This document shows positions 1 to 22,516 of a DNA stretch of 64,000 nt, piece by piece (the stretch's first letter is position 1; every line of letters starts with the position of its first letter). This DNA is from Desulfobacteraceae bacterium (GTDB taxonomy: Bacteria > Desulfobacterota > Desulfobacteria > Desulfobacterales > Desulfosalsimonadaceae). The position numbers and the translations under genes were made by a program. The stretch lies in the NCBI GenBank assembly GCA_014237465.1, contig JABZFM010000001.1, forward strand, positions 1 to 64,000. Direction: 5' to 3'. The notes under the pieces were generated by a model. The model did not search any database and was not told the DNA's origin. It saw only the letters and a list, made by a program, of their open reading frames with translations.

Positions 1-1702
1 TGGTATCCGGCACTTCAATCTCTGAGGCCTTTCTGGTTAAAACATACTCTTGACCCTTTCTCTGGATAAAGCCGTTTTCCATAAGGCTGTGGGTGATTTC
101 CTCCACAAACAAGGGATTGCCGCCTGCCTTGCTTAACACAAGGTTTCTTAGCTCCGGAACAGCCTCTCCATCCTCAAGAATGGCCTGCACCAGTTCGGCG
201 CTTGAAGCTGTGCCGAGCTGATCAAGGCCGATTTTTGAGTAATAGGACTTGCTCCCCCAATGATGGATATATTCCGGGCGATAAAGAAGAATGAGCATAA
301 TACGGCTGCCGGGCAGTGAATCGATGAGGGATTGAATAAATTCTCCTGATGTTCTGTCCATCCAGTGGAGGTCATCTACAACAACCACGATTGGTTTATT
401 TTCACTCTCGCAAATCAGCAGATCTCTGATCGCTTCAAAGGTTTTTAGTTTTTTTACGGCGGGTTCGAGCTGTAAATATGCCTCATTATCAACTTTAACA
501 GATAAGAGCTCCTGAAAGGGAGACAAGGTGCTTTTAAACCGCTCATCAAGCTGGATGATTTTCTCTTTCATCTTTTTCTTGATGACAAATTCTAAATCCC
601 CCTCTTTGATATCAAAGTAAGACTTTAAAATATCGAGTATGGGAAGATAGGCCATGGAGCCGCCATAGTGGATACACCGTCCTTCAAGCCAGGTGTATTC
701 ATCCAGGGGCAGTCTGTTTCTCATTTCAAGAAGAAGTCTTGATTTTCCTACGCCAGCCTCTCCAACAATGCCCACAACCTGTCCTGATCCTGATTGAACT
801 TTTTCATATGCCTCCATCAGACCGGCCATGGAATTTTCCCGGCCCACAAACCGGGTGAGGCCCTTGGCAATTGAAGCGCCGATTCGGGAATCCACATCCC
901 CCTTTTTGATCAGCTCAAATGCTTCCTGAGGTTCCTTTTTTCCCTTAATCGTAACTTTTCCGAGGGGCTCAAATTCAAAGAACTCCCGGGCGATTTTATA
1001 TGTGTTGCCTGATACCAGAACAGTTCCGGGCTTGGCTGTACTTTCCATTCTGGCAGCTAGATTGGTGGTGTCACCCACTGCCGTGTAATCCATCCTGAGA
1101 TCATCGCCTATGGAAGCCACGATTACCGGCCCGGAGTTAAGCCCGATCCGCATTTTAAAATCTATTCCTCGTTCATTCTTTAGCTTTTCACCATATTTTT
1201 CTATCGCTTTTTGAATAGATAACGATGCATAACAAGCCCGCTGGGCATGATCCTCATGTGCCACCGGTGCACCAAACAGCGCCATGACACCATCTCCCGT
1301 AAACTGGTTGATGGTGCCTTCAAATTTGTGAATCTCATCCATAAGAACCTTGAAACATCCATCCATAATTTGGTGGACCTGCTCAGGATCAAGCTTCTCC
1401 GACATCGAGGTAAACCCAGCCACATCTGCAAAAAGGACCGTCACCAGCTTCCGTTCACCCTCGATGGAACTGCGTGAAGTCAGAATTTTATCAGCTAGGA
1501 ATTTGGGGGTGTAAGATTGGGGTTCGGAGTAGTCGGGGGGTTTTGTTGGTTCTTTCAGGCTGTGGCCGCATTCGCCGCAGAATTTATCACCCGGAATGTT
1601 TTCAGAGTTACACTGAGGGCAAAGCAATAAAAGCTTTGCACCACACTCACGGCAAAACTTTCTTGCCTCCTGATTTTCAGCCTGGCATTTAGGGCATTTC
1701 AT
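1..1702 (-). CDS. Cyclase/ATPase/TPR giant, type B (5' part only, runs off the window)
   Basis: The first 567 codons of a leftward gene are present; the rest lies beyond position 1. The protein starts MKCPKCQ and has two zinc ribbons (CxxC pairs), then a class III nucleotide cyclase domain with the metal aspartate motifs FADVAGFT and NQFTGDG and the motif YTAVGDTTNLAARM. A Walker A (GEAGVGKS) and a Walker B (VDDLHW) of a STAND/AAA_16-type ATPase follow. The reading frame is open from the ATG to the window edge and the last visible residues (EIEVPDT) align with the same stretch in the gene at 15780-19112, its closest relative here. A full copy should be about 1110 residues with a TPR tail. It lies 113 bp downstream of the type A gene and is probably co-transcribed with it. 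Family membership is clear; product (cAMP or cGMP) and stimulus are unknown. Confidence 0.9.
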   Translation of the reverse strand, partial: MKCPKCQAENQEARKFCRECGAKLLLLCPQCNSENIPGDKFCGECGHSLKEPTKPPDYSEPQSYTPKFLADKILTSRSSIEGERKLVTVLFADVAGFTSMSEKLDPEQVHQIMDGCFKVLMDEIHKFEGTINQFTGDGVMALFGAPVAHEDHAQRACYASLSIQKAIEKYGEKLKNERGIDFKMRIGLNSGPVIVASIGDDLRMDYTAVGDTTNLAARMESTAKPGTVLVSGNTYKIAREFFEFEPLGKVTIKGKKEPQEAFELIKKGDVDSRIGASIAKGLTRFVGRENSMAGLMEAYEKVQSGSGQVVGIVGEAGVGKSRLLLEMRNRLPLDEYTWLEGRCIHYGGSMAYLPILDILKSYFDIKEGDLEFVIKKKMKEKIIQLDERFKSTLSPFQELLSVKVDNEAYLQLEPAVKKLKTFEAIRDLLICESENKPIVVVVDDLHWMDRTSGEFIQSLIDSLPGSRIMLILLYRPEYIHHWGSKSYYSKIGLDQLGTASSAELVQAILEDGEAVPELRNLVLSKAGGNPLFVEEITHSLMENGFIQRKGQEYVLTRKASEIEVPDT

Positions 1703-1752
1703 TTTTCCCTCCATCAATGGAGAATTAAAGTTATTCCTTACATTGTCGCCAG

Positions 1753-1859
1753 GTAACTTCTCAATAAGTCCGGGCTATAAATGTGAGTTCACATATAACC
1801 CATGTAGCGGAAGGCTAAAGCCTTCCGCTACATCGCCCGGATTTATTGAGAGAATACGC
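1753..1859. repeat. Hairpin MITE-like element, copy 1, inserted at a gene end
   Basis: The two ends match as inverted repeats: one reads GTAACTTCTCAATAAGTCCG, and the other, reverse-complemented, reads GTATTCTCTCAATAAATCCG. Inside is a strong stem (TAGCGGAAGGC / GCCTTCCGCTA, 1805-1830). CGCCAG occurs on both sides (about 1747-1752 and 1859-1864), compatible with a target duplication. The undisturbed paralogue near 19150 has contiguous sequence here. The element supplies the stop codon of the type A cyclase gene. Confidence 0.75.
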
Positions 1860-4800
1860 CGCCAGTTCCTTTTCATATTTCTCAATCCAGCCGTCAGCGC
1901 CGCATTCTTTGAGAATCTCTATGGCTTTGTTCAGGTTTTCCTTGGCTTTCGGAATATCATCTTTTTGTTTAAAAAGATCAGCGTAAAGAGCGTAATCCTT
2001 TCCTAAACAAAACATCATGCCGTTTCTTTGGTCGGCTTCGATGGCTTGCCTGATCCATTTCTCTGCCTCTGTTAAATGCTCATCATCTATATTTAACAGA
2101 ATTTCTCCGATATATCTTTTCATCCAGCCGTCATAAGCATTAATCTTATTTTCAGAAACAAAGTTGTACATTGTTTTTAGATCAACATTTTTTTCATGAT
2201 TCATCACCATTGATCTTGCAACGGAAATTTTATTCAAATTCATATGCGATGGTAGCATTTTGCTTTGATTAAATAGTGAAATAGCGCCTAAATAATAGTT
2301 TTTTGATTTTTCATAATCGCCACGTTCATAGTATATATCCCCTAAAGTCCATTTTGTGTTAGCCCCAAATGAAATAAGGTTTATACGTTCGCAAAAGTTT
2401 AAGCCGTCAATGAGGTATTTCTCTGCATCGTTTAAAAGCCCCTTGTGGTAACAGGACTGACCATGACAGCTAAAAGTATAGGCCTTTGAAAGAATATCGC
2501 CACTGTCTTCTGCCAACTTTAGTGCTTCGCTGCTGGTTTTATATGCAAGATCAATCTTACCCTGTAAATTAAAAACAAAATAACCTTGAGCGCTTCTATT
2601 TAGTGCCATTCCCCATTTGCTTTTAGTGGTTTTAACGATATCCATCCAGTTTTGAAAATTTTCTGAGGCTTTATCAAATTCACAATTAAGCCCCATGGCA
2701 GGTCCCAGATGCGAAAGGGCTACAATCAATGAAAAATAATTACCAACTTCCGCTGAGTCTCTGATGGCTTTTTTTAATGTCTTGAATGCGTTTGGTACAT
2801 CTTCCTTAATCCAAAACAAATAAGATCCTTCAATCGTGTGTATCTGGCAGAGCCGCTTTTTATAATCGTATCTCAAGGCCAGGTCAACAACAGGTGCTAC
2901 GGCCTCCTTCGCTCTTGTATTATAATTTATTTGCAAAAAATAAAGACCTATTATCGTACGTGCATCGATTATTTTTTTCTGGACATCATCTGTCCGAGGA
3001 AGCCTCTCAAGGCATTCAATTCTTTTTTCCCCATAGGTAATGGCATCGTTAAATGAAGCTTTTTTAATTGCCTTTTTGCATATCAGCTTACAGTACTCTT
3101 CGCCTTTCTCAAAATTTTCTGCTTTTATGAAGTGATCGGATAACAACTCGTAGTGTTCGTCTATATTCTCTTTGTGTAATTCTTCAATGGTTCTTCCTAT
3201 TTTTTCGTGGAGTATTTTTTTTCTTTTGCCCAGTATCGTATCATAGACAACCTCTTGCGTCAGGGCGTGTTTAAAAATATAGGTGGATTGCGGATATATG
3301 CCCCTTTCATAGACAAGCTCCGTGTCTTTTAAAACCGAAAGGCGGGATAACAACTCCCTTTCAGGAAGCTCCGCCACCTTCTGAATCAACTCGTAGCTGA
3401 ACTCACGCCCTAAGACTGATCCGATCTGGAGCAGTTCCTTTGCGCCCTCAGACAGCGAGTCAACCCGGGACATGATCACATCCTGGATTGTTGAAGGGAT
3501 GGCGACATCTTTAAGATCTTTTACCAGACAATATTTCTTCTTCTGCTCTTCAATAATCCTTAAATCTTTTAGTGATTTTAAAAACTCTTCTATAAAAAAG
3601 GGCACACCCTCGGTTTTTTCAAGGACCAGCTCCTCGATTTCTATGTCGATCTCTGCTGTGCCCAAAAGGTGAGAAACCATGGCCAGGCTTTCCCGGTTGG
3701 AAAGCCGGTTTAAGTTGATCTGGCTGTGATATGATTTTCCTCCCCATGTGTGCACATACTCCGGCCTGTAAGTGAATATTAAAAATACCTGTGCCCCGGA
3801 AATGTTCTCAAGCAAGTTCTTAAAATATTCCTCGGAACTTCTGTCAATCCAGTGCAAATCTTCAACAGCGATAATCAAAGGCCTTATTTCGGAACCCTTT
3901 AAGGTAATTAAATGAACCGCAGACATGATGCGATCTTTTCTGGCCTCCGGACTCATGTCGATCTGATCGATACCGCTGTCTTTGACAGATAAAAGCTCAA
4001 GCAGGTAAGGAAGGATATTGGCTTCATCTATATCAATTGTTTTCAGCCACTTGGTGACTTTATTTTTTATTGTTGTGCAGTCATCGGTATCTAAGATATT
4101 AAAGTTTGATTTTAGAATATCGATGACCGGGTGATATGCTATTCCACGGCTATAGGAAAGGCACTTGCCTTCAAAAAAGCTCACATCTTCATTTGATACA
4201 CTCTTTCTAAATTCATACAATAGCCTTGATTTTCCAACACCTGCCTCGGCCATAATCGAAAATGCCTGTCCTCGGCCAGATTTGGACATCTTAAACCCAT
4301 CCAGCAGAATTTCAAGCTCCCTCTCTTTTCCGATAAAAGGAGTAAGGCCTCTTTCAGCACTCACATCAAATCTTGTACGTCTGGAACTGGTAGCGATTAC
4401 ACGATATATTTCAACTGGATCTTTTTTGCCTTTGATTGTTTTTTCGCCCAAAGCTTCAAAACGGAACAATCCTTCGGTGACCTTAAACGTATCCTCTGTT
4501 ACATAAGTTGATCCTGGCTCTGCCAGGCTCTCCATTCTTGATGCCAGATTTACCGTATCTCCCACAGCTTTAAATTCGACCCGAAGATCATTCCCAAGAG
4601 TTCCCACAACAACCGGGCCGGTATGAATGCCGATTCGCATTTTAAGTATTGGCAGGCTTGTTTTTTCCTGTTTTAGCTTATCGCTGAACTTTGACATTTC
4701 CAGATGAATGGCCATAGCAGATCGGATTGCACGCTGAGGGGCGTCTTCAAGTGCGATTGGGGCGCCAAACAGAGCCATTACTCCGTCACCGGTCATTTCA

Positions 4801-5222
4801 TTGACCGTACCCTCAAATTCATGGACCTTGTGGATTAATATTTCATAAACCTGGTCCATGATGCCATAGGCGTCCTCAGGGCCGAGGACCTCTGAAAGGG
4901 GGGTAAATCCGACCATGTCACAGAACATCACGGTGACCTGTTTGCGCTCGCCTTCGATTTTGCCCCTTTGGGCCAGGATTTTCTCAGTAAGTCCTTTGGG
5001 AAGATACCGCTGGATTTTCTCTAATTTATCATCAAAAGAGATTTCTTGAGGGAGTGGCTCGGAAGAGGGTATTGACAATTTGTGGCCGCATTCATCGCAA
5101 AACTTACTGCCGGGAGGATTTAATCTGCTGCATTCCGGACATGAAAGTTCCAATTTGCAACCACACTCGTTGCAGAATTTTGCCTCTTCACGATTATCAA
5201 TCTGGCACTTTGGGCATTTCAT
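1815..5222 (-). CDS. Cyclase/ATPase/TPR giant, type A (copy 1), C-terminus rewritten by a repeat
   Basis: The 1135-residue protein has two zinc ribbons (C3-C46), a class III cyclase domain at about 93-275 and an AAA_16/STAND-like ATPase from about 296. D102 (FCDMVGFT) and D146 (TGDG) are the metal aspartates, and N225/R229 lie in GDTVNLASR. Walker A is AEAGVGKS ending at S332, and Walker B is VEDLHW around D455. The long helical tail is TPR-like. No signal peptide or membrane segment is seen, so it is probably cytosolic. At the substrate-choosing positions it has E142 and K218 rather than the usual Lys/Asp or Lys/Thr of adenylate cyclases, so its product cannot be called. The last 13 or so residues (SLNKSGRCSGRL) come from the inserted hairpin element; the paralogue at 19148 ends EKEMAAM instead. 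It follows the micro-ORF cassette at 5602-6008. Confidence 0.92.
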   Translation of the reverse strand: MKCPKCQIDNREEAKFCNECGCKLELSCPECSRLNPPGSKFCDECGHKLSIPSSEPLPQEISFDDKLEKIQRYLPKGLTEKILAQRGKIEGERKQVTVMFCDMVGFTPLSEVLGPEDAYGIMDQVYEILIHKVHEFEGTVNEMTGDGVMALFGAPIALEDAPQRAIRSAMAIHLEMSKFSDKLKQEKTSLPILKMRIGIHTGPVVVGTLGNDLRVEFKAVGDTVNLASRMESLAEPGSTYVTEDTFKVTEGLFRFEALGEKTIKGKKDPVEIYRVIATSSRRTRFDVSAERGLTPFIGKERELEILLDGFKMSKSGRGQAFSIMAEAGVGKSRLLYEFRKSVSNEDVSFFEGKCLSYSRGIAYHPVIDILKSNFNILDTDDCTTIKNKVTKWLKTIDIDEANILPYLLELLSVKDSGIDQIDMSPEARKDRIMSAVHLITLKGSEIRPLIIAVEDLHWIDRSSEEYFKNLLENISGAQVFLIFTYRPEYVHTWGGKSYHSQINLNRLSNRESLAMVSHLLGTAEIDIEIEELVLEKTEGVPFFIEEFLKSLKDLRIIEEQKKKYCLVKDLKDVAIPSTIQDVIMSRVDSLSEGAKELLQIGSVLGREFSYELIQKVAELPERELLSRLSVLKDTELVYERGIYPQSTYIFKHALTQEVVYDTILGKRKKILHEKIGRTIEELHKENIDEHYELLSDHFIKAENFEKGEEYCKLICKKAIKKASFNDAITYGEKRIECLERLPRTDDVQKKIIDARTIIGLYFLQINYNTRAKEAVAPVVDLALRYDYKKRLCQIHTIEGSYLFWIKEDVPNAFKTLKKAIRDSAEVGNYFSLIVALSHLGPAMGLNCEFDKASENFQNWMDIVKTTKSKWGMALNRSAQGYFVFNLQGKIDLAYKTSSEALKLAEDSGDILSKAYTFSCHGQSCYHKGLLNDAEKYLIDGLNFCERINLISFGANTKWTLGDIYYERGDYEKSKNYYLGAISLFNQSKMLPSHMNLNKISVARSMVMNHEKNVDLKTMYNFVSENKINAYDGWMKRYIGEILLNIDDEHLTEAEKWIRQAIEADQRNGMMFCLGKDYALYADLFKQKDDIPKAKENLNKAIEILKECGADGWIEKYEKELAAYSLNKSGRCSGRL

Positions 5223-5532
5223 TTTTATTCACCAATCATCAAGATGCTTGAACAAAAAACCCCCAAAAAAAGAATTAACCCGGGCGGAACTACTGGTTGT
5301 ATTCGGTATGAATGTTTAGAAGGTAATAAGAAGAGGCGATGATTTTTTTTTGCCGTCGTTTGGGTAGATAGAGTATTCTAGAATTTAGTAATGGGTGTTG
5401 TCAAGAATTACTTTGGCTGATTTGAGAAAGGTTTTACGATCTGCCATATCATAGTATGAATTAATGGTGGTACAGGAGAATGTATTTGTTTTGTTGATTA
5501 TTTTGAAAAATTTATCAGCAATGGGAATTTCC

Positions 5533-5614
5533 CTGGATCGCATTGTACATGATAGCGATCTCAATTTTTTTTCAACTTTTTTTAGATTTGCTGATAATCA
5601 GCTATGCGATCCAG
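5533..5614 (-). promoter_or_regulatory. Conserved leader with mutually exclusive pairings, copy 1
   Basis: Two perfect 11-base arms, CTGGATCGCAT (5533-5543) and ATGCGATCCAG (5604-5614), can pair. A third segment GCGATC (5555-5560) can pair with the same downstream arm in the transcript. The first arm to be transcribed overlaps the stop codon of micro-ORF 4. The block recurs nearly unchanged at 22820-22901 before the other type A gene. This layout resembles a translation-sensitive leader, but that is inference. The 310 bp between it and the cyclase start hold no other gene that I can support. Confidence 0.4.
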
Positions 5615-5658
5615 AAAAATGAATAAATTGTGAAGTGGGTGGTTGGCATCGGGTTCAT
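5602..5658 (-). CDS. Micro-ORF 4 of the cassette, copy 1 (18 codons)
   Basis: The frame encodes MNPMPTTHFTIYSFFWIA. Its ATG overlaps the TGA of micro-ORF 3 (ATGA), which would allow translational coupling, and it has no separate strong ribosome binding site. The copy at 22889 has the same length. There the second half (TIYSFFWIA) is identical while codons 4-9 differ completely. It ends in WIA like micro-ORF 1. It is less certain than its three neighbours and might act only as a leader peptide over the inverted repeat that overlaps its stop. Confidence 0.4.
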   Translation of the reverse strand: MNPMPTTHFTIYSFFWIA

Positions 5659-5717
5659 ACAAACCATCCGAGAGTGAAACAATAAATAACGTTTGTGAGT
5701 ATTGTTAGAATGTCCAT
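5655..5717 (-). CDS. Micro-ORF 3 of the cassette, copy 1 (20 codons, hydrophobic)
   Basis: The frame encodes MDILTILTNVIYCFTLGWFV, a single hydrophobic stretch long enough to span or lie in a membrane. An AGGAGA ribosome binding site lies 7 bases before the ATG. The copy at 22942 differs by one synonymous base in the part compared. No known family is recognised. It lies between micro-ORFs 2 and 4, all reading towards the type A cyclase gene. Confidence 0.6.
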   Translation of the reverse strand: MDILTILTNVIYCFTLGWFV

Positions 5718-5816
5718 TTTATTTCTCCTTTTTTTATGATGTCATTTTGAAAATAAATGATTTGTTCTTTTCATATCGCTTCAGCGTTTCAGCATATCTT
5801 GTTTTCGGGTGATCGG

Positions 5817-5876
5817 TTAAGAGATGAAAAGAATGCCCATGTACAGATAATATCCGATGATCATTAATGTATCCAT
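5817..5876 (-). CDS. Micro-ORF 2 of the cassette, copy 1 (19 codons, hydrophobic)
   Basis: The frame encodes MDTLMIIGYYLYMGILFIS and is preceded by a GGGGGG ribosome binding site 7 bases from the ATG. In the second cassette (23105) the last five residues change to ALLIA, and the stop changes from TAA to TAG, but length and hydrophobicity are kept. It shares an opening M-(D/E)-(T/I)-L with micro-ORFs 1 and 3, suggesting the three arose by duplication. Function is unknown; a membrane micropeptide is the simplest reading. Confidence 0.62.
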   Translation of the reverse strand: MDTLMIIGYYLYMGILFIS

Positions 5877-5948
5877 TTTATTGCCCCCCTTTATAATTTG
5901 TTGTTATTGAAAATAATTGCGTCATCTCTTTGTTTTAGTGATGATCTT

Positions 5949-6008
5949 TTAAGCGATCCAGAGAATGGCATAAACAACGATGTGTCCGATTGTCAGTAAA
6001 GTTTCCAT
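5949..6008 (-). CDS. Micro-ORF 1 of the cassette, copy 1 (19 codons, hydrophobic)
   Basis: The frame encodes METLLTIGHIVVYAILWIA with a GGGGGAG ribosome binding site 5 bases before the ATG, the strongest of the set. The second copy (23259) differs only by Val to Ile. It is the first frame of the cassette after a candidate promoter at 6059-6074. No homologue is recognised. Alternatives include a type I toxin-like peptide or a small regulator of a membrane protein. Confidence 0.65.
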   Translation of the reverse strand: METLLTIGHIVVYAILWIA

Positions 6009-6058
6009 TTTGTCTCCCCCTTTTGTTGTGGTTTTTGTTGCCGTTTGATTATTAATAA

Positions 6059-6074
6059 TCCAATAAGCATGCCA
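6059..6074 (-). promoter_or_regulatory. Candidate sigma-54 type promoter before the micro-ORF cassette, copy 1
   Basis: On the minus strand TGGCATGCTTATTGGA resembles the -24/-12 pattern TGGCAC-N5-TTGCA, with the -12 GC changed to GG. It sits about 50 bases before micro-ORF 1 and is identical in the second cassette (23368-23383). Conservation may reflect recent duplication, so this is only a candidate. Confidence 0.3.
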
Positions 6075-6271
6075 AACCGCACAGGAAACTTTTAATAGCT
6101 TGTTTTGTTTGGGGATAATTTTTTTTCTGGTGAAATTTAGGGGCTGTGGTTGGAATGATTAAGACGCATATAATGAATGCTATGCATGGATTTTTGCGGT
6201 AATGATAGCTGTAGAATTCAGGAATTTCATAATCGGATTTCTCTTCATGGGGGCTGTGACCACATTTGTCA

Positions 6272-6444: not shown

Positions 6445-7512
6445 TCAGCCATTATCAGTATAGCGTTGATGGATCGTTTTGAACGTCTCGATATTATCCA
6501 GCATGATCTTTACCAGCTCCGGATCAAACCGGCGACCGGAGCCTTGCCTTATGATTTGAAGCGTTTTATCAATATCGAATGCCTCCTTGTAGCATCGTCT
6601 GGACATCAATGCATCAAACACATCCGCTATGGAGATGATTCGGGATTCAAAAGGGATATTATCGCCTGATAAACCATCGGGATAGCCGGAACCGTCATAC
6701 CGCTCATGGTGGTGCCGAACCAGGTTGTACGCCATTACAAATGTCGGATGATTAACTTGTTCAAGCACCTTTTTCAGGGTCTGGGCGCCAATGGTTGTGT
6801 GAGTTTTCATTTTTTCAAACTCATCTTTTGCCAGTTCCCCCGGTTTCAGAAGAATACTGTCCGGTATGCCAACTTTGCCGATGTCATGCAGAGGGGAAAC
6901 ATTGTAAATATTTTCAATAAAATCATACGTTATTGACTGAGGGTATGTATTCCGGCTCTTTATTCGCTCGGATATAAACATACAGTATGATTGAACCCTC
7001 TTGAGATGCTCTCCGATTTCCGGATCACGGGACTCAGCCAGGTCCGCCAGCGAGAATATCATGGTATGATAGGCATTGATGATCTGTTGATTGGCCTTGC
7101 TTTCTGAGTGAATCAAGCGGTCATTAATGGTTTGAATCATATTCAGGCTGAGGCGATGGTTCTTCTCGACCAACGCCATAAAATCATGCTGATTGATTGT
7201 ATAACAAACCAAATCCGTATGAGCATGCACGGTCGCGGACCGATTGTTACCGGAGAGTAATGACATCTCACCAAAATATTCGCCGGTCTGAATCATGCCC
7301 AGGCTTCTCTCTCCACCGAAAAAATCCTTTACAACTCCGGCCCGGCCTTTGACCAATAAAAACATGGACTGGCCGGCATCCCCTTCTTTAAAGACGGTCT
7401 CTCCTTTTGTATAGGTTACCCGATGAAATCGCTCTGTGATGAGATTTAACTCATCTTCAGAAATTCCATCAAACAGCCTGTTTTTTTTAAGGTATTCGAT
7501 TAAATGATGCAT
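6445..7512 (-). CDS. Cyclic-nucleotide-binding HD-GYP phosphodiesterase
   Basis: Of 355 residues, about 10-125 form a cNMP-binding domain with a phosphate-binding cassette (GEYFGEMSLLSGNNRSA, E82 and R91). Residues about 145-345 form an HD-GYP domain with H169, H209-D210, HHH at 267-269 and the G276-Y277-P278 motif. HD-GYP domains typically hydrolyse c-di-GMP. The cNMP domain makes the enzyme a likely target of cAMP or cGMP made by the cyclases upstream. It starts 88 bp after the end of the cyclase gene at 7601-11185 and closes the operon-like run. It has no membrane segment or receiver domain. Both domains are clear; the signalling connection is inferred from domain logic and neighbours. Confidence 0.93.
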   Translation of the reverse strand: MHHLIEYLKKNRLFDGISEDELNLITERFHRVTYTKGETVFKEGDAGQSMFLLVKGRAGVVKDFFGGERSLGMIQTGEYFGEMSLLSGNNRSATVHAHTDLVCYTINQHDFMALVEKNHRLSLNMIQTINDRLIHSESKANQQIINAYHTMIFSLADLAESRDPEIGEHLKRVQSYCMFISERIKSRNTYPQSITYDFIENIYNVSPLHDIGKVGIPDSILLKPGELAKDEFEKMKTHTTIGAQTLKKVLEQVNHPTFVMAYNLVRHHHERYDGSGYPDGLSGDNIPFESRIISIADVFDALMSRRCYKEAFDIDKTLQIIRQGSGRRFDPELVKIMLDNIETFKTIHQRYTDNG

Positions 7513-11185: not shown

Positions 11186-11188
11186 TGT

Positions 11189-14100: not shown

Positions 14101-14521
14101 CCATCACGCCGTCCCCAGTAAACTGATTGATGGTCCCCTCATACTTATGAATCTCATCCATCAGGATCTTGAAACATCCGTCCATGATCTGGTGGACTTC
14201 TTCCGGATCGAGTTTTTCGGACAGGGACGTGTAGTTGGCAACATCAGCGAAAAGCACCGTGACAAGCTTACGCTCTCCTTCCATGGTGCTGCGTGTGGTC
14301 AGTATCTTATCGGCAAGAAATTTAGGGGTATAGGATTGGGGCTCGGAGTAGTCACCGGGTTCTTTGGGTTCATGAAGACTGCTGCCGCACTTACCGCAAA
14401 ATTTTCGGTCTAAGGGGATCTTTTCTCCGCACTCAGAACAAATTAATTCTAACTTAGTACCGCATTGTTCACAAAATATGACCCCTTCACGATTATCAAA
14501 CTGACATTTCGCGCATTTCAT
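11189..14521 (-). CDS. Cyclase/ATPase/TPR giant, type B
   Basis: The protein has 1110 residues. It contains two zinc ribbons (C3-C46), a class III cyclase domain at about 84-265 and a STAND/AAA_16-like ATPase. Metal aspartates are D93 (FADVANYT) and D137 (NQFTGDG); T207 and N214/R218 lie in YTAVGDTTNLASR. Walker A is GEAGVGKS at 314-321 and Walker B IDDLHWIDKTSEEF. Many TPR-like helices follow. Thr207 fits class IIIb cyclases, but Gln133 replaces their substrate Lys. A GGGGGG ribosome binding site precedes the ATG. The gene is 33 bp after the glycosyltransferase and abuts the next cyclase. It resembles the gene at 15780-19112 along its whole length. Confidence 0.93.
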   Translation of the reverse strand: MKCAKCQFDNREGVIFCEQCGTKLELICSECGEKIPLDRKFCGKCGSSLHEPKEPGDYSEPQSYTPKFLADKILTTRSTMEGERKLVTVLFADVANYTSLSEKLDPEEVHQIMDGCFKILMDEIHKYEGTINQFTGDGVMALFGAPIAHEDHAQRACYAALSIRKAIETYGGKVKKDFNADFKMRIGLNSGPVVVGAIGDDLRMDYTAVGDTTNLASRMESIAEPGAVLISENTYKIVQDFFEFKPLGKVAVKGKDEAQKAFELIKKGSVETRLGASVVRGLTRFVGRKNSMSYLIQAYNKAKSGAGQVVGMVGEAGVGKSRLLLEFRNQLTPDEFSFLEGRCLHYGSAMAYLPFLDILKSYFKIADEDPESLIKEKITEKTLNLDQNLKSAHTPFQDLLSLKVGDEKYLQVEPSERKLRVFESLRNLFVRESQNRPLILAIDDLHWIDKTSEEFIDYLIGWLQNTKILLILLYRPEYTHQWGSKSYYRKIGVDQLTTKSSAMLVQSILEGGKAVPELRELILSRAGGNPLFVEELTQNLLENGSIAKKNHQYILTKNASDIQVPDTLHGIIASRIDRIEESLKRVMQMASVIGREFAFRILQTIMGMREELKSYLLNLQGLEFIAEKQLFPELEYIFKHVLTQEVAYNSLLQKRRKEIHEKVADAIEVLYPVRIEEYYELLAYHYRRSDNAKKALDYLDKANQKAARLNAMQEAMSYFNEAMELLDTLDETNENQKHRISLLCNQPFVFALLLRFQEYYDLLTSYEPVAVDLDDIELLAKFYAVLTASEISLGHLDQAIEKGTRAIDLSKAAGHPEYATNAYISILWGYAWTCEYDKVHALKEDILYLLENQFNLKLYVYTFCAVSLSFINTGQWDKAITMGNEALKMAEKFSDKSLISHTLMHIAHAYIIKGDMVQALEHSKISVDKAPTPFDELWAQIFQAWILCRSGEARKGIEFLVANLPMIKAVGFPPSIIDTIFWLGEGYWLIGEYEKATQILNNVLDLAEQYNMRLHFGNAHYFLGEVALKTDPSRASMHFQKSIDTFQDLKAEYYLARAYAGYGRYHKQQGEIVQAQDYLKKALEIFERLEILIEPDKVKKELADLPPGEG

Positions 14522-14554: not shown

Positions 14555-15757
14555 TTAATTAATATGGTAATTTATGAGCTCGGCCGCTTTTTGAGCGCCG
14601 AAAGTTGAAATTTGCGCATAATCCTGTTTTTTACCCAGGTTAGAAATAACCATTTCGGCTAAACATTCCGGTGTTGTTTCAGAAAATAGCATTTTGACGC
14701 CCGCCCGATGTCTGGCCACCCGGGAGGAAACATTGCGTTGCTGTTCACAATGTTCCTCAAGAGGAAAATAAAGAAACGGCCGCTTCAGGGCAGTCAGCTC
14801 CAGTGTACTCGTACCGCCACCCAAAACAATGGCTAAATCGCTTGCAGCAAAATGCTCGTAAAGGTCGGGAATATATTCCTTTACTTCCACTCCTTGTGGG
14901 ACTTCAAGAGATTCGGCAGAAAGGCGTGGGCCACAGACTAAAACCATGCGAAGATCAGGAACCTGTTTTCTGATAATAGGGTAGGCTTGCCCACAAAGTT
15001 CTAACAGTTCTTTACCGATGGAAGTGCCGCCAATGGAACATATGATCAGAGTCTCTTTTCCATACCCCAGTTTCTCTCTTACTTTCATTTGATCACCATA
15101 TTCTGCAGGATCAAACGGGAGAACATAGCCTATGAATTTACATCTCGCTTTAGCCCAATCTAAGCGATTGGGGAGGAGAAAGCCGAATTTTTCGTCTGGT
15201 ACGTCTTCGAGTTCGCCGACAAAAAGTTCTAAATTAATCGGAGAAGGAACACGGTGGCAAACTTTTGACCATACGCGATTCCAGTAGTAAATCCCTAGCT
15301 TCTCCAAAGGATTTTTCGTCATGGAATAGAGTCCTATAAAATCGAAAATCATCACAAAGGGCGCTTTCTTGATTCCTGGCTTCTTATGCAAGGCGATCCA
15401 TATTTCATAAGTTTCATCACCAATAACGAGATCGTATTGCTGCTTACTGGTTACCTGTTTGAAGACTTCTACATTCTCATCCCACTCCTTCTTTGCTTTA
15501 AAGGCATATTTCACAATATTTAGCAGCGGGCCTTTGCTGGCTTTTTCTGCCGGAATGTTGTCATTGGCATATAAATCGGCTTCAGGGAGAAGCTTTTCAC
15601 CAGCATTTTTAATTAATATGCTCGCCGGTTGAGACGCCAACCAAAAAATCTCAATCCGGGGATTTTGTTTGCGTAATTGACTGGCTATGGCCAGATCCCT
15701 TGTAATATGCCCCAATCCCAATGATCCGCTGATATATAAAACCCTTTTTGCTGACAT
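14555..15757 (-). CDS. MurG-like (GT28 family) glycosyltransferase inside the cyclase run
   Basis: The 400-residue protein has a two-domain GT-B layout. The N-terminus VLYISGSLGLGHITRDLAIA carries the GxGH motif of the MurG/GT28 group. The C-terminal half has the nucleotide-sugar-binding run VLGGGTSTLELTALKRPFLYFPL and the later HCEQQRNV. It probably transfers a sugar from a UDP-sugar at the membrane face, but acceptor and sugar cannot be told. No transmembrane segment is evident. A strong ribosome binding site (AAGGAGGGG) lies 5 bases before the ATG, 22 bp after the preceding cyclase gene. The tight spacing on both sides puts it in the same transcript as four cyclases. Confidence 0.85.
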   Translation of the reverse strand: MSAKRVLYISGSLGLGHITRDLAIASQLRKQNPRIEIFWLASQPASILIKNAGEKLLPEADLYANDNIPAEKASKGPLLNIVKYAFKAKKEWDENVEVFKQVTSKQQYDLVIGDETYEIWIALHKKPGIKKAPFVMIFDFIGLYSMTKNPLEKLGIYYWNRVWSKVCHRVPSPINLELFVGELEDVPDEKFGFLLPNRLDWAKARCKFIGYVLPFDPAEYGDQMKVREKLGYGKETLIICSIGGTSIGKELLELCGQAYPIIRKQVPDLRMVLVCGPRLSAESLEVPQGVEVKEYIPDLYEHFAASDLAIVLGGGTSTLELTALKRPFLYFPLEEHCEQQRNVSSRVARHRAGVKMLFSETTPECLAEMVISNLGKKQDYAQISTFGAQKAAELINYHIN

Positions 15758-15779: not shown

Positions 15780-18700
15780 TTATGGGCCGATTGCCAACTC
15801 GGCCAACTCCTTTTTTACCTTGTCCGGTTCAATAAGAATTTCCAATCGTTCAAAGATTTCAAACGCTTTCGTTAAATAGTCTTTGGCTTGAGACATCTCG
15901 CCCTGTAGTTTGTGGTATCGGCCGTAACCTGAGTATGCCCGTGCTAGATAATATTCAGCCTTGATCTCTTGTAATATATCGATACTTTTCTCAAAGTGGA
16001 TTAATGCCTGCTGCGGATCTGTTTTTAAGGCAATCTCACCTAAGAAGTAGTGAGCAGCCCCAAAATAAAGTTTCATCTTATATTGCTCTGCAAGATCCAG
16101 CACATTTTTAAGCGTCTGAATCGCTTTATCATACTCTCCTGCCAGCCAATAACCTTCACCAAGCCAAAGACTGGTAAAAACTACGCCGGTTTCATATCGA
16201 GCAGTCTGGAACATTGGAAGAGTTGCAGCTATAATTTCTGTGCCTTGATGAGGCTCTCCGGCACGGCATAAAATCCATCCATGAAAAAATTGAGCCCACA
16301 CTATATCTCCTGGAGTTTGGGCTTTGCTAATTGACAGTTCAACGTATTCCAGGGCCCGAGCCATGTCACCTTTTAAATTATAAGCAGCTGCAATGAATGA
16401 GGATGAGAAAGAAATTAAACTATGATTTGAAAATTTCTCAGCCATATTTAGCGCTTTATGACCCGCTTGTACAGCACTGTCAAACTGACCAACATTTATA
16501 AGTGCCCAGGCAACAAAAGAAAAAGTATATGCATATAATCGAAGATCAAAGTGATTCTCCGACAAGCGAAGGATCTCTTCTTTTAATGCAAGAGCTTTAT
16601 CGTAATTAGATGTATGCACATAACTACACAATATTATTATATGTGCATTATATGCGTTTTCAGGGGGGAGACCTGAGTTCTTACAGAGTTCGATCGCTTT
16701 GGATCCTGTTGCGATTGACTGATCATAATGGCAGAAGCAAGTTTCACATGCTGATAAGGCAGTATAAAACCCTACGAGGAGTTCAGGATCATTTAAATCG
16801 ATCGCTATAGGCTTGTATCGAGTCAGCAGGTCGTAATACTCCGGGTACTTCAAAAGCAAAAGGAATACAAACGGCTGATTACATAACAAAGAGATACGAC
16901 GTTTCTGATTTTCAATGGTTTCATCCATGGTGTCCAGGAGAGCCATGGCTTCGTTAAAATAGGTTAATGCTTCTTGCATAGCAATTAGTCTGATAGCTTT
17001 CTGATTGGACAGTTCCAGGTAATCCAAGGTGTTAAGTGTATTTTCACTCCGCCCATAATGGTATGCAAGGAGTTCATAGTATTCTTCGATTCGATCCGGA
17101 TACAGGACTTCGATGGCACTTGCTACCTTTTCATGAATCTCCTTTCTTTTTTTTTGAAGTAAACTGTTATACGCCACTTCCTGGGTGAGGACGTGTTTAA
17201 AGATATATTCCAACTCAGGGAAAAGATGCTTTTCAGTTATAAATTCCAAACTCTGGAGGTTAATGAGATTGGATTTCAGTTCTTCTCTCATGCCCATGAT
17301 GGTCTGTAGAACGCGAAAAGCGAATTCCCGACCAATGACCGATGCCACCTGCATCACCCGTTTGAGGCTTTCCTCTATTCGATCGATACGAGCCGCTATA
17401 ATCCCCTGAATCGTATCCGGCACCTGAATCTCTGATATTTTTTTTGTTAAAATATATTGATGATCTTTCCTTTTAATAGATCCGTTCTCCAACAGATTTT
17501 GAGTAAGCTCCTCAACAAATAGCGGATTTCCGCCTGCTTTACCAAGGATAAGTTCTCTAAGTTCCGGAACGACATCTCCGTCTTCGAGAATGGATTGCAC
17601 CAACATGACACTGGACTTGGATGTCAACTGGTCAACACCGATTTTACCGTAATTGGATTTGCTGCCCCATGGATGCGTATATTCCGGCCGATACAAAAGG
17701 ATCAGCAGGATTTTTGTGTTCTGTATCCATCCCATAAAATAGTCAATAAACTCTTCAGACGTTTTGTCGATCCAGTGGAGGTCGTCTATTGCAAGAATAA
17801 GAAGTTTGTTTTGGCCTTCTCGAACAAATAAATTCCGAAGAGATTCAAAAACCCTCACCTTTCTTTCTCCCGGATCAACTTGAAGATAGTTTTGATCTTC
17901 GACCTTGAGGGAGAATAAATCCTGAAATGGAGGGAGGGCGCTTTTAAGATTTTCATCAAGATTGAGGATTTTTTCCTCAGTTTTATTCTTGATAATAAAT
18001 TCTTGATCTTTTTCGTCTATCTCAAAATAAGACTTTAATATCTCCAGAACAGGCAGGTATGCTATACTGCTGCCATAGTGAAAGCACCGGCCTTCAAAGT
18101 ATGCAAATTCATTCGGAGGCAATTGATTTCTAAATTCCAGAAGGAGCCTTGACTTTCCTACACCAGCTTCTCCAACGATGCCCACAACCTGTCCTGATCC
18201 TGATTGTACTTTTTCATATGCCTCCATAAGACCGGCTATGGAATTTTTCCGGCCGACAAACCGGGTGAGCCCCTTGGCGACTGAAGCGCCTAACCGGGTC
18301 TCTACACTCCCCTTTTTGATAAGTTTAAAAGCCTTCTGCGGTTCCTCCTTTCCTTTAACTGTAATTTTCCCCATAGATTCAAATTCAAAGAAATCCCGGG
18401 CTGTATTGTATGTGTTCTTTGATACAAGGATAGTGCCGGACTCGGCTGTACTCTCCATTCTGGCAGCCAGGTTGGTGGTGTCACCGACTGCCGTATAATC
18501 CATCCTTAGATCATCCCCGATGGCCCCTACGACTACCGGTCCTGAGTTAAGCCCGATGCGCATTTTAAAATTCTCACCGTAATCCTTCGTTACCTTGTCG
18601 CCATATGATTCAATTGCTTTCTGGATGGATAAGGCTGCATAACAGGCACGCTGGGCATGGTCCTCGTGGGCGATAGGGGCACCGAATAGGGCCATCACAC

Positions 18701-19112
18701 CATCACCGGTAAACTGATTGATGGTCCCTTCGTACCTGTGGATTTCTTCCATCAGGATCTTGAAGCACCCATCCATGACCTGGTGTACTTCCTCCGGATC
18801 AAGCTTTTCCGACATAGAGGTAAATCCGGCCACGTCAGCAAAAAGAACTGTTACCAGCTTTCGTTCACCTTCGATTGAACTGCGTGAAGTCAGAATTTTA
18901 TCGGCAAGGAATTTGGGGGTGTAGGATTGGGGCTCGGTGTAGTCGGGGGGGGCTGTGGGTTCCTGCAGGTTGTTGCCGCATTCGCCACAGAATTTATCTT
19001 CAGGAATAATTTCAGCACCACATTGAGAGCAGTTCAGTACAAATTTCGTCCCACATTCACGGCAGAATTTTTTATTCTCTGGATTTTCAGTCTGACATTT
19101 CGGACATTTCAT
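15780..19112 (-). CDS. Cyclase/ATPase/TPR giant, type B
   Basis: The protein has 1110 residues with two zinc ribbons, a class III cyclase domain (FADVAGFT, NQFTGDG, YTAVGDTTNLAARM), Walker A GEAGVGKS, Walker B IDDLHWIDKTSEEF and a TPR-like tail ending EILIEPDKVKKELAELAIGP. It lies 35 bp after the type A gene at 19148-22516, matching the order of the pair at 1-5222. The start region and cyclase domain are particularly close to the edge-truncated gene at 1-1702. A TGGAG ribosome binding site lies 7 bases before the ATG. As with its relatives, Gln replaces the substrate Lys while Thr is kept. It is likely an ATP-gated cyclase responding to a ligand bound by the tail; this is inferred from domain order only. 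Confidence 0.93.
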   Translation of the reverse strand: MKCPKCQTENPENKKFCRECGTKFVLNCSQCGAEIIPEDKFCGECGNNLQEPTAPPDYTEPQSYTPKFLADKILTSRSSIEGERKLVTVLFADVAGFTSMSEKLDPEEVHQVMDGCFKILMEEIHRYEGTINQFTGDGVMALFGAPIAHEDHAQRACYAALSIQKAIESYGDKVTKDYGENFKMRIGLNSGPVVVGAIGDDLRMDYTAVGDTTNLAARMESTAESGTILVSKNTYNTARDFFEFESMGKITVKGKEEPQKAFKLIKKGSVETRLGASVAKGLTRFVGRKNSIAGLMEAYEKVQSGSGQVVGIVGEAGVGKSRLLLEFRNQLPPNEFAYFEGRCFHYGSSIAYLPVLEILKSYFEIDEKDQEFIIKNKTEEKILNLDENLKSALPPFQDLFSLKVEDQNYLQVDPGERKVRVFESLRNLFVREGQNKLLILAIDDLHWIDKTSEEFIDYFMGWIQNTKILLILLYRPEYTHPWGSKSNYGKIGVDQLTSKSSVMLVQSILEDGDVVPELRELILGKAGGNPLFVEELTQNLLENGSIKRKDHQYILTKKISEIQVPDTIQGIIAARIDRIEESLKRVMQVASVIGREFAFRVLQTIMGMREELKSNLINLQSLEFITEKHLFPELEYIFKHVLTQEVAYNSLLQKKRKEIHEKVASAIEVLYPDRIEEYYELLAYHYGRSENTLNTLDYLELSNQKAIRLIAMQEALTYFNEAMALLDTMDETIENQKRRISLLCNQPFVFLLLLKYPEYYDLLTRYKPIAIDLNDPELLVGFYTALSACETCFCHYDQSIATGSKAIELCKNSGLPPENAYNAHIIILCSYVHTSNYDKALALKEEILRLSENHFDLRLYAYTFSFVAWALINVGQFDSAVQAGHKALNMAEKFSNHSLISFSSSFIAAAYNLKGDMARALEYVELSISKAQTPGDIVWAQFFHGWILCRAGEPHQGTEIIAATLPMFQTARYETGVVFTSLWLGEGYWLAGEYDKAIQTLKNVLDLAEQYKMKLYFGAAHYFLGEIALKTDPQQALIHFEKSIDILQEIKAEYYLARAYSGYGRYHKLQGEMSQAKDYLTKAFEIFERLEILIEPDKVKKELAELAIGP

Positions 19113-19147
19113 TTTTTACTCCATCAAAGGAGAATTAAAGTTATATG

Positions 19148-22100
19148 TTACATTGCCGCCATTTCCTTTTCATATTTTTCAACCCACCCGTCAGCGCCGC
19201 ATTTTTTGAAAATATTGATTGCTTTGATCAGGTTTTCTTGGGCTTTTGGAATATTGTTTTTTCGTTTGATAAGATTAGCGTAAAGGGCATAATCCCTGGC
19301 TAACTCAAACATCATGCCGTTTTTTTTGTCAGCATCGATGGCTTTTTGGATCCACTCTTCGGCTTTAGAGATATGTTGGATGCCAAGATTCAACCAAATA
19401 TCCCCGAAAAGCCTTTTCGTCCATCCATCGAGACATTTTAAGTTATTTCGATCCATATAATTATTCATCAACTTTAAATCAAAATTTTTGAACTTATTGA
19501 TCATACGGATTCTTGCAATATTGATTTCAAATAAATTGTGCCAAGAGTGGAATCCTCCAGTTTTTTTACCAAACAATATTGCTTGATTATAATGATCCCG
19601 GGCCTTTTTATAGTCTCCTCGATCAAAAAAGATTTCGCCCAAAAACAAATTCGCCCAACCTCCCCAGGAATACCACATGGTTTTTCCACATAAATCCACA
19701 GCTTCTAAAAGTACATTCTCGGCTTTTTTAAATAGTCCTTTATAAAAACAGCACATGCCAAAGGTTGAAAGTGCCATTCCCTTGAAATGTATATCACCGC
19801 TTTCTCGTGCCAGATGTAGTGATTCTTCACTCGTTTTAAATGCAAGGTCAATTTTGCCTTGAAAAGCGTAGCCAATGACACTCATAGTCCCTTTTGCAAC
19901 AACAATACCATTCGCTTCATTTATTGTCTTCGACAAATCAAGCGACTTAATTAAAAATGAAATGCCTTTTTCAAAATCACAATTAAAACATAAAGCACCC
20001 CCCAAAAAATAGCATGCAAGCCAGTAGGAAAAGAAATCACCAGTTTCTTCAGAAATTTTTATTGCCTTCTGTAAGTCTTCAAATCCTTTCGGATAATCTT
20101 CTTCAACATAAATGCTAAATGATCCGGTTGAGACATATATAATCGGAAGTTTTTTTTGATAATTTAAATTAACAGCCAGATCTACGATTGGAGCGACAGC
20201 TTCTTTTGCTGCAACATGGAGATTAATCACTACGCAATAAGCAGCCAGACTTGTCCTGGCATCAATGATTTTTTTCTGAACAGCATCTGTGTTTGAAAAT
20301 TTTTCAAGGCAGAAAATCGTTTTTTGGGCATATGATATGGCATCACTGAATGCAGATCTTTTTCTCGCCATCCTGCCTGCCAGCTTTGAATATTCAGCCC
20401 CTTTTTCATAATTTTCAGAATTAATAAAATGCCCGGATAGAACCCCGTAATGTTGATTAATATTTTCTTTAAACAGTTCCTCAATCGCGGTGCCAATTTT
20501 TGCATGAAGTTTTTTCTTTCTTTTGGTCAATATCGAGTCGAAAATTACTTCCTGGGTAAGTGCATGTTTGAATATATAGGTTGATTCGGGATATATTCCT
20601 TTTTCATACAGCAGCTCAGAATCCTTTAAGGCTGACAAATGAGAGAGAAGTTCCTGCCCGGATAAGCCTGTCACCAGCTTTATCAATTCATAGCTGAACT
20701 CTCTTTCGATAACCGACCCGGTTTGAAGCAGCTCTTTTGCACCTTCAGGCAGGGAATCAACACGAGCCATTATGACATCCTGAATCGTTGAAGGGATGGT
20801 TATATCCTGAAAATCTTTTGCCAGATGATATGTTTTCTTTTTTTCTTCAATGATCTTCAAATCCTTAAGCGATTTTATAAATTCCTCAATGAAAAATGGC
20901 ACCCCTTCAGTTTTTTCAAGGATCATGTTCCCGATATCACTGACAATATCATCTGTCCCCATAAGGTGTGTCACCACGGCAAGGCTCTCCTGGTTGGAAA
21001 GGCGGTTCAGCGTGATCTGGCTGTGATACGATCTGCCTCCCCAAATGGGCACATACTCCGTCCGGTAAGTAAAGATTAATAATATACATGCAACTGAGAT
21101 ACTATTGAGCAGATTCTTCAGACATTCCTCAGAGCTTTTATCAATCCAGTGAAGATCTTCAATCGCAATAACCAGCGGTTTTAATTCAGAACCTTTAATG
21201 GCGATTCGTTTCACGGATTCCATGATCTGCTCTTTTTTTGCCTGGGGGCTCATTGGTATTTTATCTATACCGCTATCTTTCACAGATAAAAGCTCCAGAA
21301 GATACGGCAGGGTGGAGGCTTCATCAATGTCCAATATGCTCAGACCGTTTATGATCTTATCCCTGATCTCTGAATCATTGTCGTTTTCCTGAATATTAAA
21401 ATTTGATTTCAATATATCTATGACCGGATGATATGCAGCACCCTTGCTATATGAGAGACATCTCCCCTCCAAAAAGGTAATATCTTCATTGATCACAGCT
21501 TTTCTGAATTCATATAAAAATCTGGATTTGCCGACACCCGCCTCAGACACAATGGAAAATGCCCGGCCACTGCCGGCCTTTGAGCGCTCAAACCCATCCA
21601 GCAGCAGCTCAAGTTCCCGCGCTCTGGCGATAAAAGGCGTCAGCCCCCGTTCGGCACTGACATCAAACCGGGTTCGCCGGCTGCTGGGTGCGATTACACG
21701 ATATATCCTAACCGGATCTTTTTTGCCCTTGACCGCTCTTTCACCCAGGGCTTCGAAACGGAAAAACCCCTCGGTGAGCTTAAATGTGTCTTCGGTTATA
21801 TATGTGGCGCCGGGTTCTGCCAGCCCTTCCATTCTGGAGGCCAGATTTACCGTATCGCCCACAGCTTTAAACTCAACCCGAAGATCATTGCCCAGGGTGC
21901 CGACAACAACAGGGCCGGTATGAATGCCGATACGCATCTTAAGAATTGGCAGACCTGCCTTCTCCTGTTTTAGCTTATCGCTGAATTTAGACATTTCTCT
22001 ATGTATCGCCATTGCAACCCTGATCGCACGTTGAGGAGCATCTTCAAGCGCAATGGGCGCACCAAATAACGCCATCACACCGTCACCGGTCATTTCATTG

Positions 22101-22516
22101 ACCGTGCCTTCAAAATCATGAACCTTGTGAATTAATATTTCATAGACCTGGTCCATGATTGAGTATGCTTCCTCGGGGCCAAGGCTCTCGACCATAGGAG
22201 TAAAACCTTCCAAATCGCAGAACATGACCGTGACCTGTTTGCGCTCACCTTCAATTTTGTCTTTTTGGGCCAGGATTTTTTCAGCAAGTCCCTTTGGAAG
22301 ATATCGCTGGATCTTGTCTATTTTTTCATCAAAGGAGAGTTCTTTGGGGGGAGGCTCGGAGGGGGAAGTCAAGTTGTAGCCGCATTCAATACAGAATCTA
22401 CTTGCCGGAGAGTTTGCCTTTCCGCATTCCGGACATGCGATTTCCAGTTTATTGCCGCATGCATTGCAAAATTTTGCCCCTTCAGGGGGAACAGATTTGC
22501 ATTTCGGACATTTCAT
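19148..22516 (-). CDS. Cyclase/ATPase/TPR giant, type A (copy 2)
   Basis: The protein has about 1122 residues, starting MKCPKCKS by analogy with its paralogues; a TTG three codons upstream (22525) is possible but no clear ribosome binding site favours it. Domain order is two zinc ribbons, class III cyclase (FCDLEGFT, NEMTGDG, FKAVGDTVNLASRM), ATPase (SEAGVGKS, IEDLHWIDKSSEE) and TPR-like tail ending EKEMAAM. It is closest to the gene at 1815-5222 and keeps the original C-terminus that the other has lost. As there, Glu and Lys occupy the two base-recognition positions. It heads the run of leftward genes down to 6445 and is itself preceded by the micro-ORF cassette at 22889-23318. Confidence 0.92.
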   Translation of the reverse strand: MKCPKCKSVPPEGAKFCNACGNKLEIACPECGKANSPASRFCIECGYNLTSPSEPPPKELSFDEKIDKIQRYLPKGLAEKILAQKDKIEGERKQVTVMFCDLEGFTPMVESLGPEEAYSIMDQVYEILIHKVHDFEGTVNEMTGDGVMALFGAPIALEDAPQRAIRVAMAIHREMSKFSDKLKQEKAGLPILKMRIGIHTGPVVVGTLGNDLRVEFKAVGDTVNLASRMEGLAEPGATYITEDTFKLTEGFFRFEALGERAVKGKKDPVRIYRVIAPSSRRTRFDVSAERGLTPFIARARELELLLDGFERSKAGSGRAFSIVSEAGVGKSRFLYEFRKAVINEDITFLEGRCLSYSKGAAYHPVIDILKSNFNIQENDNDSEIRDKIINGLSILDIDEASTLPYLLELLSVKDSGIDKIPMSPQAKKEQIMESVKRIAIKGSELKPLVIAIEDLHWIDKSSEECLKNLLNSISVACILLIFTYRTEYVPIWGGRSYHSQITLNRLSNQESLAVVTHLMGTDDIVSDIGNMILEKTEGVPFFIEEFIKSLKDLKIIEEKKKTYHLAKDFQDITIPSTIQDVIMARVDSLPEGAKELLQTGSVIEREFSYELIKLVTGLSGQELLSHLSALKDSELLYEKGIYPESTYIFKHALTQEVIFDSILTKRKKKLHAKIGTAIEELFKENINQHYGVLSGHFINSENYEKGAEYSKLAGRMARKRSAFSDAISYAQKTIFCLEKFSNTDAVQKKIIDARTSLAAYCVVINLHVAAKEAVAPIVDLAVNLNYQKKLPIIYVSTGSFSIYVEEDYPKGFEDLQKAIKISEETGDFFSYWLACYFLGGALCFNCDFEKGISFLIKSLDLSKTINEANGIVVAKGTMSVIGYAFQGKIDLAFKTSEESLHLARESGDIHFKGMALSTFGMCCFYKGLFKKAENVLLEAVDLCGKTMWYSWGGWANLFLGEIFFDRGDYKKARDHYNQAILFGKKTGGFHSWHNLFEINIARIRMINKFKNFDLKLMNNYMDRNNLKCLDGWTKRLFGDIWLNLGIQHISKAEEWIQKAIDADKKNGMMFELARDYALYANLIKRKNNIPKAQENLIKAINIFKKCGADGWVEKYEKEMAAM

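Follow-up and report, generated by a model that had tools for sequence, protein, structure and literature searches.

A Desulfobacteraceae array of giant cyclase-STAND-helical-repeat genes with a cyclic-nucleotide-binding HD-GYP protein, a probable many-input signalling system

The left end of contig C50 in the assembly of a Desulfobacteraceae bacterium (5.09 Mb, 70 contigs) carries an array of genes for giant proteins that combine a zinc ribbon, a class III cyclase, a STAND ATPase and a helical-repeat region. The stretch analysed (G000:C50:1-64000, 64,000 nucleotides, hereafter the window) holds five complete giants and one cut by the contig end, all on the minus strand, as judged from open reading frame (ORF) calls and Pfam. 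Read along that strand, the genes are giants H and G, a glycosyltransferase gene, giants F and E, and D, in which a cyclic mononucleotide (cNMP)-binding domain is fused to an HD-GYP domain; a gap of 1,222 bases then separates D from giants B and A (Table 1). Every other intergenic gap in the array is 3-97 bases, and because those from H to D span only 3-88 bases, this run may be one transcription unit. The frame of giant H opens with a TTG at 22525, three codons ahead of an ATG at 22516 that opens MKCPKC, and the ATG is more likely to be the real start. This arrangement of five full giants and one partial giant, all leftward, with a cNMP-binding HD-GYP protein had been described in a first-pass annotation and was confirmed by the ORF calls, Pfam and alignment of the HD-GYP motifs; six paralogues in one array are far from a chance occurrence.

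All six window giants match the cyclase family PF00211 (91-113 bits against a cut-off of 21.9), each in a single stretch, and all six contain AAA_16 and the zinc ribbon. Class III cyclases work as dimers. TPR families were found in four of the five complete window giants; giant E gave no Pfam TPR match, yet its structural model is an all-alpha repeat solenoid. Alignments showed that the two metal-binding Asp residues and the transition-state Asn and Arg of the cyclase are intact in all 21 giants of this genome that cover those columns, and that the STAND Walker A K/S and Walker B [E/D]DxH residues are present in 23 of 23. General adenylyl and guanylyl cyclases are better matches to the cyclase domain than the cytidylate cyclase 8jsf, which matches weakly. 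In a related giant (L190, G016:C46), the zinc ribbon appears, by eye, to be replaced at the start of the frame by a response-regulator receiver sequence.

Genome-wide, we assigned 23 of the 28 PF00211 rows to giants, two to a single broken copy (contig C8) and three to small cyclases. Five giants, one of them cut by the contig end, lie on contig C17 and four on contig C39. Exactly 144 bases are common to the C50 and C17 ends, and likewise to the C17 and C39 starts; such common ends mark an assembly repeat, from which the order C50-C17-C39 was derived. This order suggests about 15 giants in one locus of some 60 kb, a separate circular C17 being a conceivable alternative. With protein F as the query (E ≤ 1e-60), 25 places were found in this genome besides two C-terminal fragments, compared with 0-3 in each of 30 relatives, many of them with fragmented assemblies. 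Thirteen other genomes were picked because they had many candidates or were akin; the highest number of PF00211 matches in any of them was 25, scattered across 7 Mb. The outside set, the best 80 of 568 confirmed stretches, holds 91 giant ORFs and includes small tandem runs of three giants (L143, L181) or two (L107, L152, L166, L170); L156 contains no tandem run by the criterion used. The cyclase-STAND-TPR architecture is kept across phyla, among them Thermodesulfobacteriota, Chloroflexota and Rokuibacteriota. Some copies in this genome are damaged: two C3 giants lack the N-terminus, the C8 copy is broken and C17_2 is frameshifted. The two C3 genes (L031:7734-9923 and 10191-13343) adjoin each other and have the same start sequence inside the cyclase domain, with transposase-like genes beside them, by eye. 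The literature searched contained no paper on such arrays, nor on the signals or products of cyclase-STAND-TPR giants.

Divergence among the giants is fastest in the sensor regions. Among the ten members of the E-type subfamily, identity is 74-99% over residues 41-720 (the engine), falls to 32-38% over residues 761-1080 (the sensor block) and returns to 76-85% over residues 1121-1194. The drop at about residue 760 and the rise near the C-terminus recur within each subfamily of this genome, and the F-type (four members) and E/K-type (five members) have the same profile, less steep. The ratio of non-synonymous to synonymous change (omega) in 14 pairs was 0.05-0.13 before residue 720-740, undefined where synonymous divergence (dS) saturates, and 0.17-0.34 after it; positive selection in the sensors was not shown by these values over the C-terminal third. 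In the model of giant E, the helical-repeat solenoid extends from about residue 645 to 1194, with pLDDT block means of 75-97. Its top Foldseek match is a STAND protein with a TPR sensor, and the nearest solved folds to the sensor half include MalT domain III (Z 27.1 over 335 residues, root-mean-square deviation 3.4) and the peptide-sensing Rap, NprR and AimR proteins. The fold-search listing, which cannot prove absence, contained no solved chain spanning the whole cyclase-STAND-solenoid.

These patterns bear on the view that the giants are recombining repeats, amplified selfishly with little function and many of them decaying. Such amplification would account for the damaged copies, for the exact stretch common to giants A and C17_5A at the contig ends and for the transposase-like genes seen by eye near some copies, but it is hard to square with catalytic residues that are all kept in 21 of 21 scorable copies, with the low engine omega wherever dS is unsaturated and with the same architecture across phyla, and it appears unlikely.

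The cyclases fall into two classes by their base-recognition pair, read at positions 133 and 207 of protein F in a gap-free alignment with CyaB and the guanylyl cyclase Cya2. The giants of this genome carry Gln/Thr (Q/T, 16 copies), Glu/Lys (E/K, four) or Asp/Lys (D/K, one), two being truncated, and the 91 outside ORFs divide into 46 Q/T, 30 E/K and 15 other. In a tree built from those 107 of the 114 rows that gave sufficient sequence, the Q/T rows are separated from the E/K rows and the D/K row by a branch with support 100. Thirteen tree rows bear neither label, some of them sitting inside the Q/T and E/K clades; giants A and C17_5A, whose sequences were not long enough for inclusion, were assigned to the F-type by identity. 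Because the two pairs form separate clades, there may be two different cyclic nucleotides, and the Q/T and E/K enzymes probably differ in product. A single output of cAMP or cGMP had been proposed at first; the cyclic nucleotide part stands, while at least two product classes are likely in place of one.

The available text of PMC4215837 lists Lys with Asp/Thr as the base-recognition pair of ATP cyclases, and Glu with Cys, Ser, Thr, His, Ala or Gly as that of GTP cyclases. The canonical pair is absent from the giants of this genome, whose Q/T, E/K and D/K are not in that list, and E/K points to a pair outside those given there for characterised cyclases. Since Glu marks the listed GTP cyclases, though Glu with Lys is unlisted in that text, the E/K class is more likely guanylyl-like with a cGMP-like product. 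A regular gene order, in which five of five E/K-type giants precede a Q/T giant, was not used as evidence, because, with four of these giants among 15 array places, it is by our own arithmetic to be expected in about 24% of cases.

The histories of block and engine disagree. E-type blocks sort into types only 22-34% alike, whereas the engines of the same proteins are 76-91% alike. The blocks of the C57 and C9 giants are 56-60% identical to that of L179, from another genus; their engines are 83-91% identical to most E-type copies of this genome, 78-79% to C17_1 and C50f_2, and 73-74% to L179. The C39_4 block is 60% identical to that of L189, from another family, and 46% at best to the other blocks of this genome, and its engine is nearest to copies of this genome. 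The block tree grouped C57 and C9 with L179 (100/99) and C39_4 with L189 (100/100), and monophyly of the blocks of this genome was rejected (p 6e-48). Synonymous differences, near saturation, reverse their order between the two parts: from engine to block they rise from 0.54 to 0.77 for C57 and C50_E, but fall from 0.75 to 0.60 for C57 and L179. In tandem pairs of the outside loci, engine and block identities are 83 versus 32% in L152 and 85 versus 66% in the less divergent L166. A topological conflict drawn from the engine trees was set aside (approximately unbiased (AU) test, p 0.118 and 0.207), an earlier AU run with two long rows having given no resolution; because the engine trees do not reject orthology, the case for discordance rests on the block tree, the identities and the reversed synonymous order. 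From these comparisons, it would seem that either the blocks moved or the engines were homogenised.

A possible though rather doubtful extension of this result is a diversifying receptor repertoire, in which recombination in engine and tail would swap sensor cassettes or homogenise engines, many ligand specificities would share one engine, and Q/T and E/K giants would write two cyclic nucleotides to be read by different cNMP receptors. If so, one bacterium would keep many ligand specificities on one common signalling engine. The ten natural E-type versions, one engine with different sensors, make ligand identification by swapping testable.

D matches cNMP_binding with 77 bits and HD_5 with 102 bits. 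Its motifs HD, HDIGK, H and HHERxDGxGYP align with the solved HD-GYP enzymes 4mcw and 4r8z, the HD metal site and HHExxDGxGYP being intact, and its cNMP domain contains, inside the Pfam match, the phosphate-binding cassette FGEMSLLSGNNRSATV with Glu and Arg, which we take to be the mark of cNMP phosphate binding. Breakdown of cyclic di-GMP (c-di-GMP) by D under cNMP control is plausible, Bdellovibrio Bd1971 (see below) being a precedent, and D would be a ready in-operon reporter for the product of the giants. Genome-wide there are 18 cNMP match rows, most of them away from giants. In the 80 outside loci, non-giant ORFs of at least 100 amino acids were searched with the cNMP domain of D and then with a profile. 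Of the 166 ORFs less than 1 kb from a giant, 8 bear a cNMP domain, as do 3 of the 174 at 1-3 kb and none of the 332 at greater distances, or 11 of 340 within 3 kb versus 0 of 332 beyond (Fisher p 1.4e-4 for <1 kb and 9e-4 for <3 kb). All 11 lie on the strand of the giant, compared with 171 of the 340 ORFs within 3 kb. They vary from stand-alone cNMP domains to fusions with a CRP-type helix-turn-helix (HTH) or with rhodanese, and giants of both Q/T and E/K classes have them. The pairing of cyclase to receptor is supported because cNMP genes sit only close to giants and always on the same strand. Recurrence of the neighbourhood elsewhere, which the first-pass annotation had put forward as a check, was seen for the giants in relatives and for nearby cNMP genes in the outside loci; the full-length D fusion was not found in the 30 relatives, so the link to D is local.

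In the proposed mechanism, each giant would act as a one-protein receptor, built from an N-terminal zinc ribbon, a single class III cyclase domain, a STAND ATPase and an extended sensor of helical repeats. A ligand would be held by the variable middle of the solenoid, and the ligand-bound solenoid would let the STAND module bind ATP and assemble, pairing cyclase domains and thereby switching on synthesis of cAMP, cGMP or a similar nucleotide. Receptors with a cNMP-binding domain would detect the product; in this operon the receptor would be D, which would then hydrolyse c-di-GMP through its HD-GYP domain. The receptor type has been multiplied in this genome to 23 copies, the larger part of them apparently at a single locus; their engines are conserved, and their sensor blocks, with histories unlike those of the engines, diverge strongly. 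The best reading, and probably the right one, is cyclic-nucleotide signalling with many inputs, which in part drains c-di-GMP. Its grounds are the domains, catalytic residues, residue classes, sensor variability, discordance of block and engine, and the neighbourhood of cNMP genes; from these we infer ligand sensing, the dimerisation switch, the products, the activation of D and the output at the level of the cell. The earlier proposal that several inputs converge on a cyclic nucleotide holds up, considering the intact metal, transition-state and P-loop residues, the fast-diverging sensors and the clustering of cNMP genes with giants in unrelated genomes.

Several points weigh on the other side. 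Q/T and E/K lie outside the pairs in the available text of PMC4215837, and therefore it is uncertain which nucleotides are made, and the enzymes may even be inactive. Helical repeats score high with many unrelated proteins, APPBP2 and an anaphase-promoting-complex subunit among them. The cNMP association comprises 11 genes in 10 of the 80 loci, with distance bins picked while viewing the data and loci that are not independent. The best matches to D among the 30 relatives cover mainly the HD-GYP half, and the engine trees are compatible with orthologous groupings.

The nearby polysaccharide locus had been suggested as the output on closeness alone; the 20 neighbouring proteins scanned contained no c-di-GMP effector domain, and the suggestion was set aside. 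At the end of that locus, by a Wzy-type gene, lie two adjoining genes of the type I phosphodiesterase/nucleotide pyrophosphatase family (window:46487-49855).

Anti-phage defence of the Pycsar kind would use the same parts differently: the giants would sense infection, and the cyclic nucleotide would fire a toxic effector such as a cNMP-patatin or the micropeptides described below. The statement that no effector is present proved too narrow, since a gene for two cNMP domains, an NTE P-loop and a patatin (L185:5071-7308, C39:23070-25307) lies about 4.3 kb past the last C39 giant, presumably at the right end of the superarray, and would fit a Pycsar-like effector. Pycsar cyclase models match the cyclase part of the giants with up to 98 bits, and in D and the cNMP-patatin the cNMP part is matched by Pycsar effector models; however, these matches, PycC included, are partial and confined to the generic cyclase core or to cNMP domains, and cytidylate cyclase 8jsf is the poorer match. 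Diversified STAND sensors would suit arms-race biology, yet omega in the C-terminal third indicates purifying selection on average. Moreover, a Pfam scan of the neighbours revealed no TIR or membrane effector beside the window giants, the output of D is a c-di-GMP phosphodiesterase, the CRP-HTH and rhodanese fusions outside belong to ordinary regulation, and the micropeptides are not conserved beside giants. Defence is accordingly judged improbable, and many-input signalling is preferred.

The micropeptide element comprises tandem hydrophobic ORFs of 19-20 amino acids with strong ribosome-binding sites, three of them in the copy next to B, and its copies lie upstream of B, H and C17_2, beyond the C39 giants (two) and on C69 apart from any giant. 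A pattern search gave 13 matches in this genome and 0 in the control; a match on C34 was judged chance and one extra C39 copy was found by eye. A first pattern was too strict, missed most copies of this genome and says nothing on absence. Compared with the other five copies, the most diverged one (C39b) has 54-58 of 60 bases of the first ORF unchanged, whereas in its flanks the share is for the most part between a quarter and two thirds, with a low of 3 of 52 downstream. The micropeptides look real, although conservation with the giant family was not borne out. Of the 91 outside giant ORFs, 2 have generic hydrophobic micro-ORFs upstream, versus 1 in the reverse-strand control, and the genome_contigs collection gave no exact peptide-level match (0), by which a role as conserved partners of the giants was ruled out. 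The element looks like a local one rather than a family partner, and may be a mobile or toxic element or a leader. A leader RNA reading was set aside: no Rfam family was worth keeping (three sub-threshold matches to unrelated families), folding was no better than shuffles (z -0.73) and promoter-like sites, at about twice chance, were unspecific.

The micropeptides could instead be peptide signals read by the giant solenoids, as in Rap-Phr or arbitrium. The sensor fold resembles RapF, NprR and AimR (Z 20-23), but in fold only, and helical repeats match many folds; the clusters upstream of B, H and C17_2 and the better-kept coding stretch would fit this view, against which stand the outside counts, the missing exact matches and the C69 copy away from giants. 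It is very improbable, and the further addition to the repertoire idea, that array-borne micropeptides are among the ligands, is just as hard to credit.

Table 1. Positions of the array genes, the modelled sensor block and the micropeptide elements (window coordinates unless a contig is named)
Feature	Position	Strand	Description
Contig end	1..144		exact match, reverse strand, to the end of contig C17; assembly-repeat mark joining the array to C17
Giant A	2..1717	-	N-terminal 572 amino acids, running off the contig end; Q/T class, F-type
Giant B	1815..5222	-	1135 amino acids; E/K class
Micropeptide element upstream of B	5475..6216	-	ORF starts at 6008, 5876 and 5717
D	6445..7512	-	cNMP-binding domain fused to intact HD-GYP domain; last gene of the run from H
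Giant E	7601..11185	-	1194 amino acids; Q/T class; structure modelled
Variable sensor block of giant E	7931..8893	-	residues 765-1085
Giant F	11189..14521	-	1110 amino acids; Q/T class
Glycosyltransferase family 28-like gene	14555..15757	-	between G and F
Giant G	15780..19112	-	1110 amino acids; Q/T class
Giant H	19148..22525	-	1125 amino acids; E/K class; opens the longer run
Micropeptide element, second copy, upstream of H	22762..23525	-	about 85-95% identical to the first
Further element copies	C17:5277-5875, C39:20424-20841, C39:22735, C69:161422

The giants are put together from parts of known kinds; what is of interest is the scale, the two residue classes that are uncharacterised, the neighbourhood of cNMP receptors and the mosaic make-up of the sensors. 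The TOMM kinase/cyclase fusion TIGR03903 aligns with the cyclase and STAND region over about 660 residues, giving the five complete giants 312-350 bits, well under the curated cut-off of 705.75, with matches that start at model position 277-280. Unlike that fusion, the giants have no kinase domain by Pfam, carry an N-terminal zinc ribbon and have no TOMM genes identified nearby; the available text of PMC2887384 mentions only a kinase beside TOMM clusters. MalT, a STAND activator, has a similar solenoid, but its output is a DNA-binding domain whereas that of the giants is a cyclase. The mycobacterial Rv0386 presumably resembles the giants in joining a cyclase to a STAND-like ATPase and in having Gln in place of the adenine-binding Lys; the giants differ from its cyclase-ATPase-HTH order by their helical-repeat sensor and zinc ribbon, without an HTH. 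The mammalian soluble adenylyl cyclase ADCY10 has the class III catalytic domain in common with the giants by sequence and, we assume, a similar NTPase/TPR part; it has two cyclase domains, in contrast to the single one of the giants with its Q/T or E/K base pair. For D, the closest parallel considered is Bdellovibrio Bd1971, described in the available text of PMC6717892 as a proven cNMP-EAL protein that responds to both cAMP and cGMP. Both proteins fuse a cyclic-mononucleotide domain to a c-di-GMP phosphodiesterase, D with HD-GYP instead of EAL and co-oriented in a run with cyclase genes.

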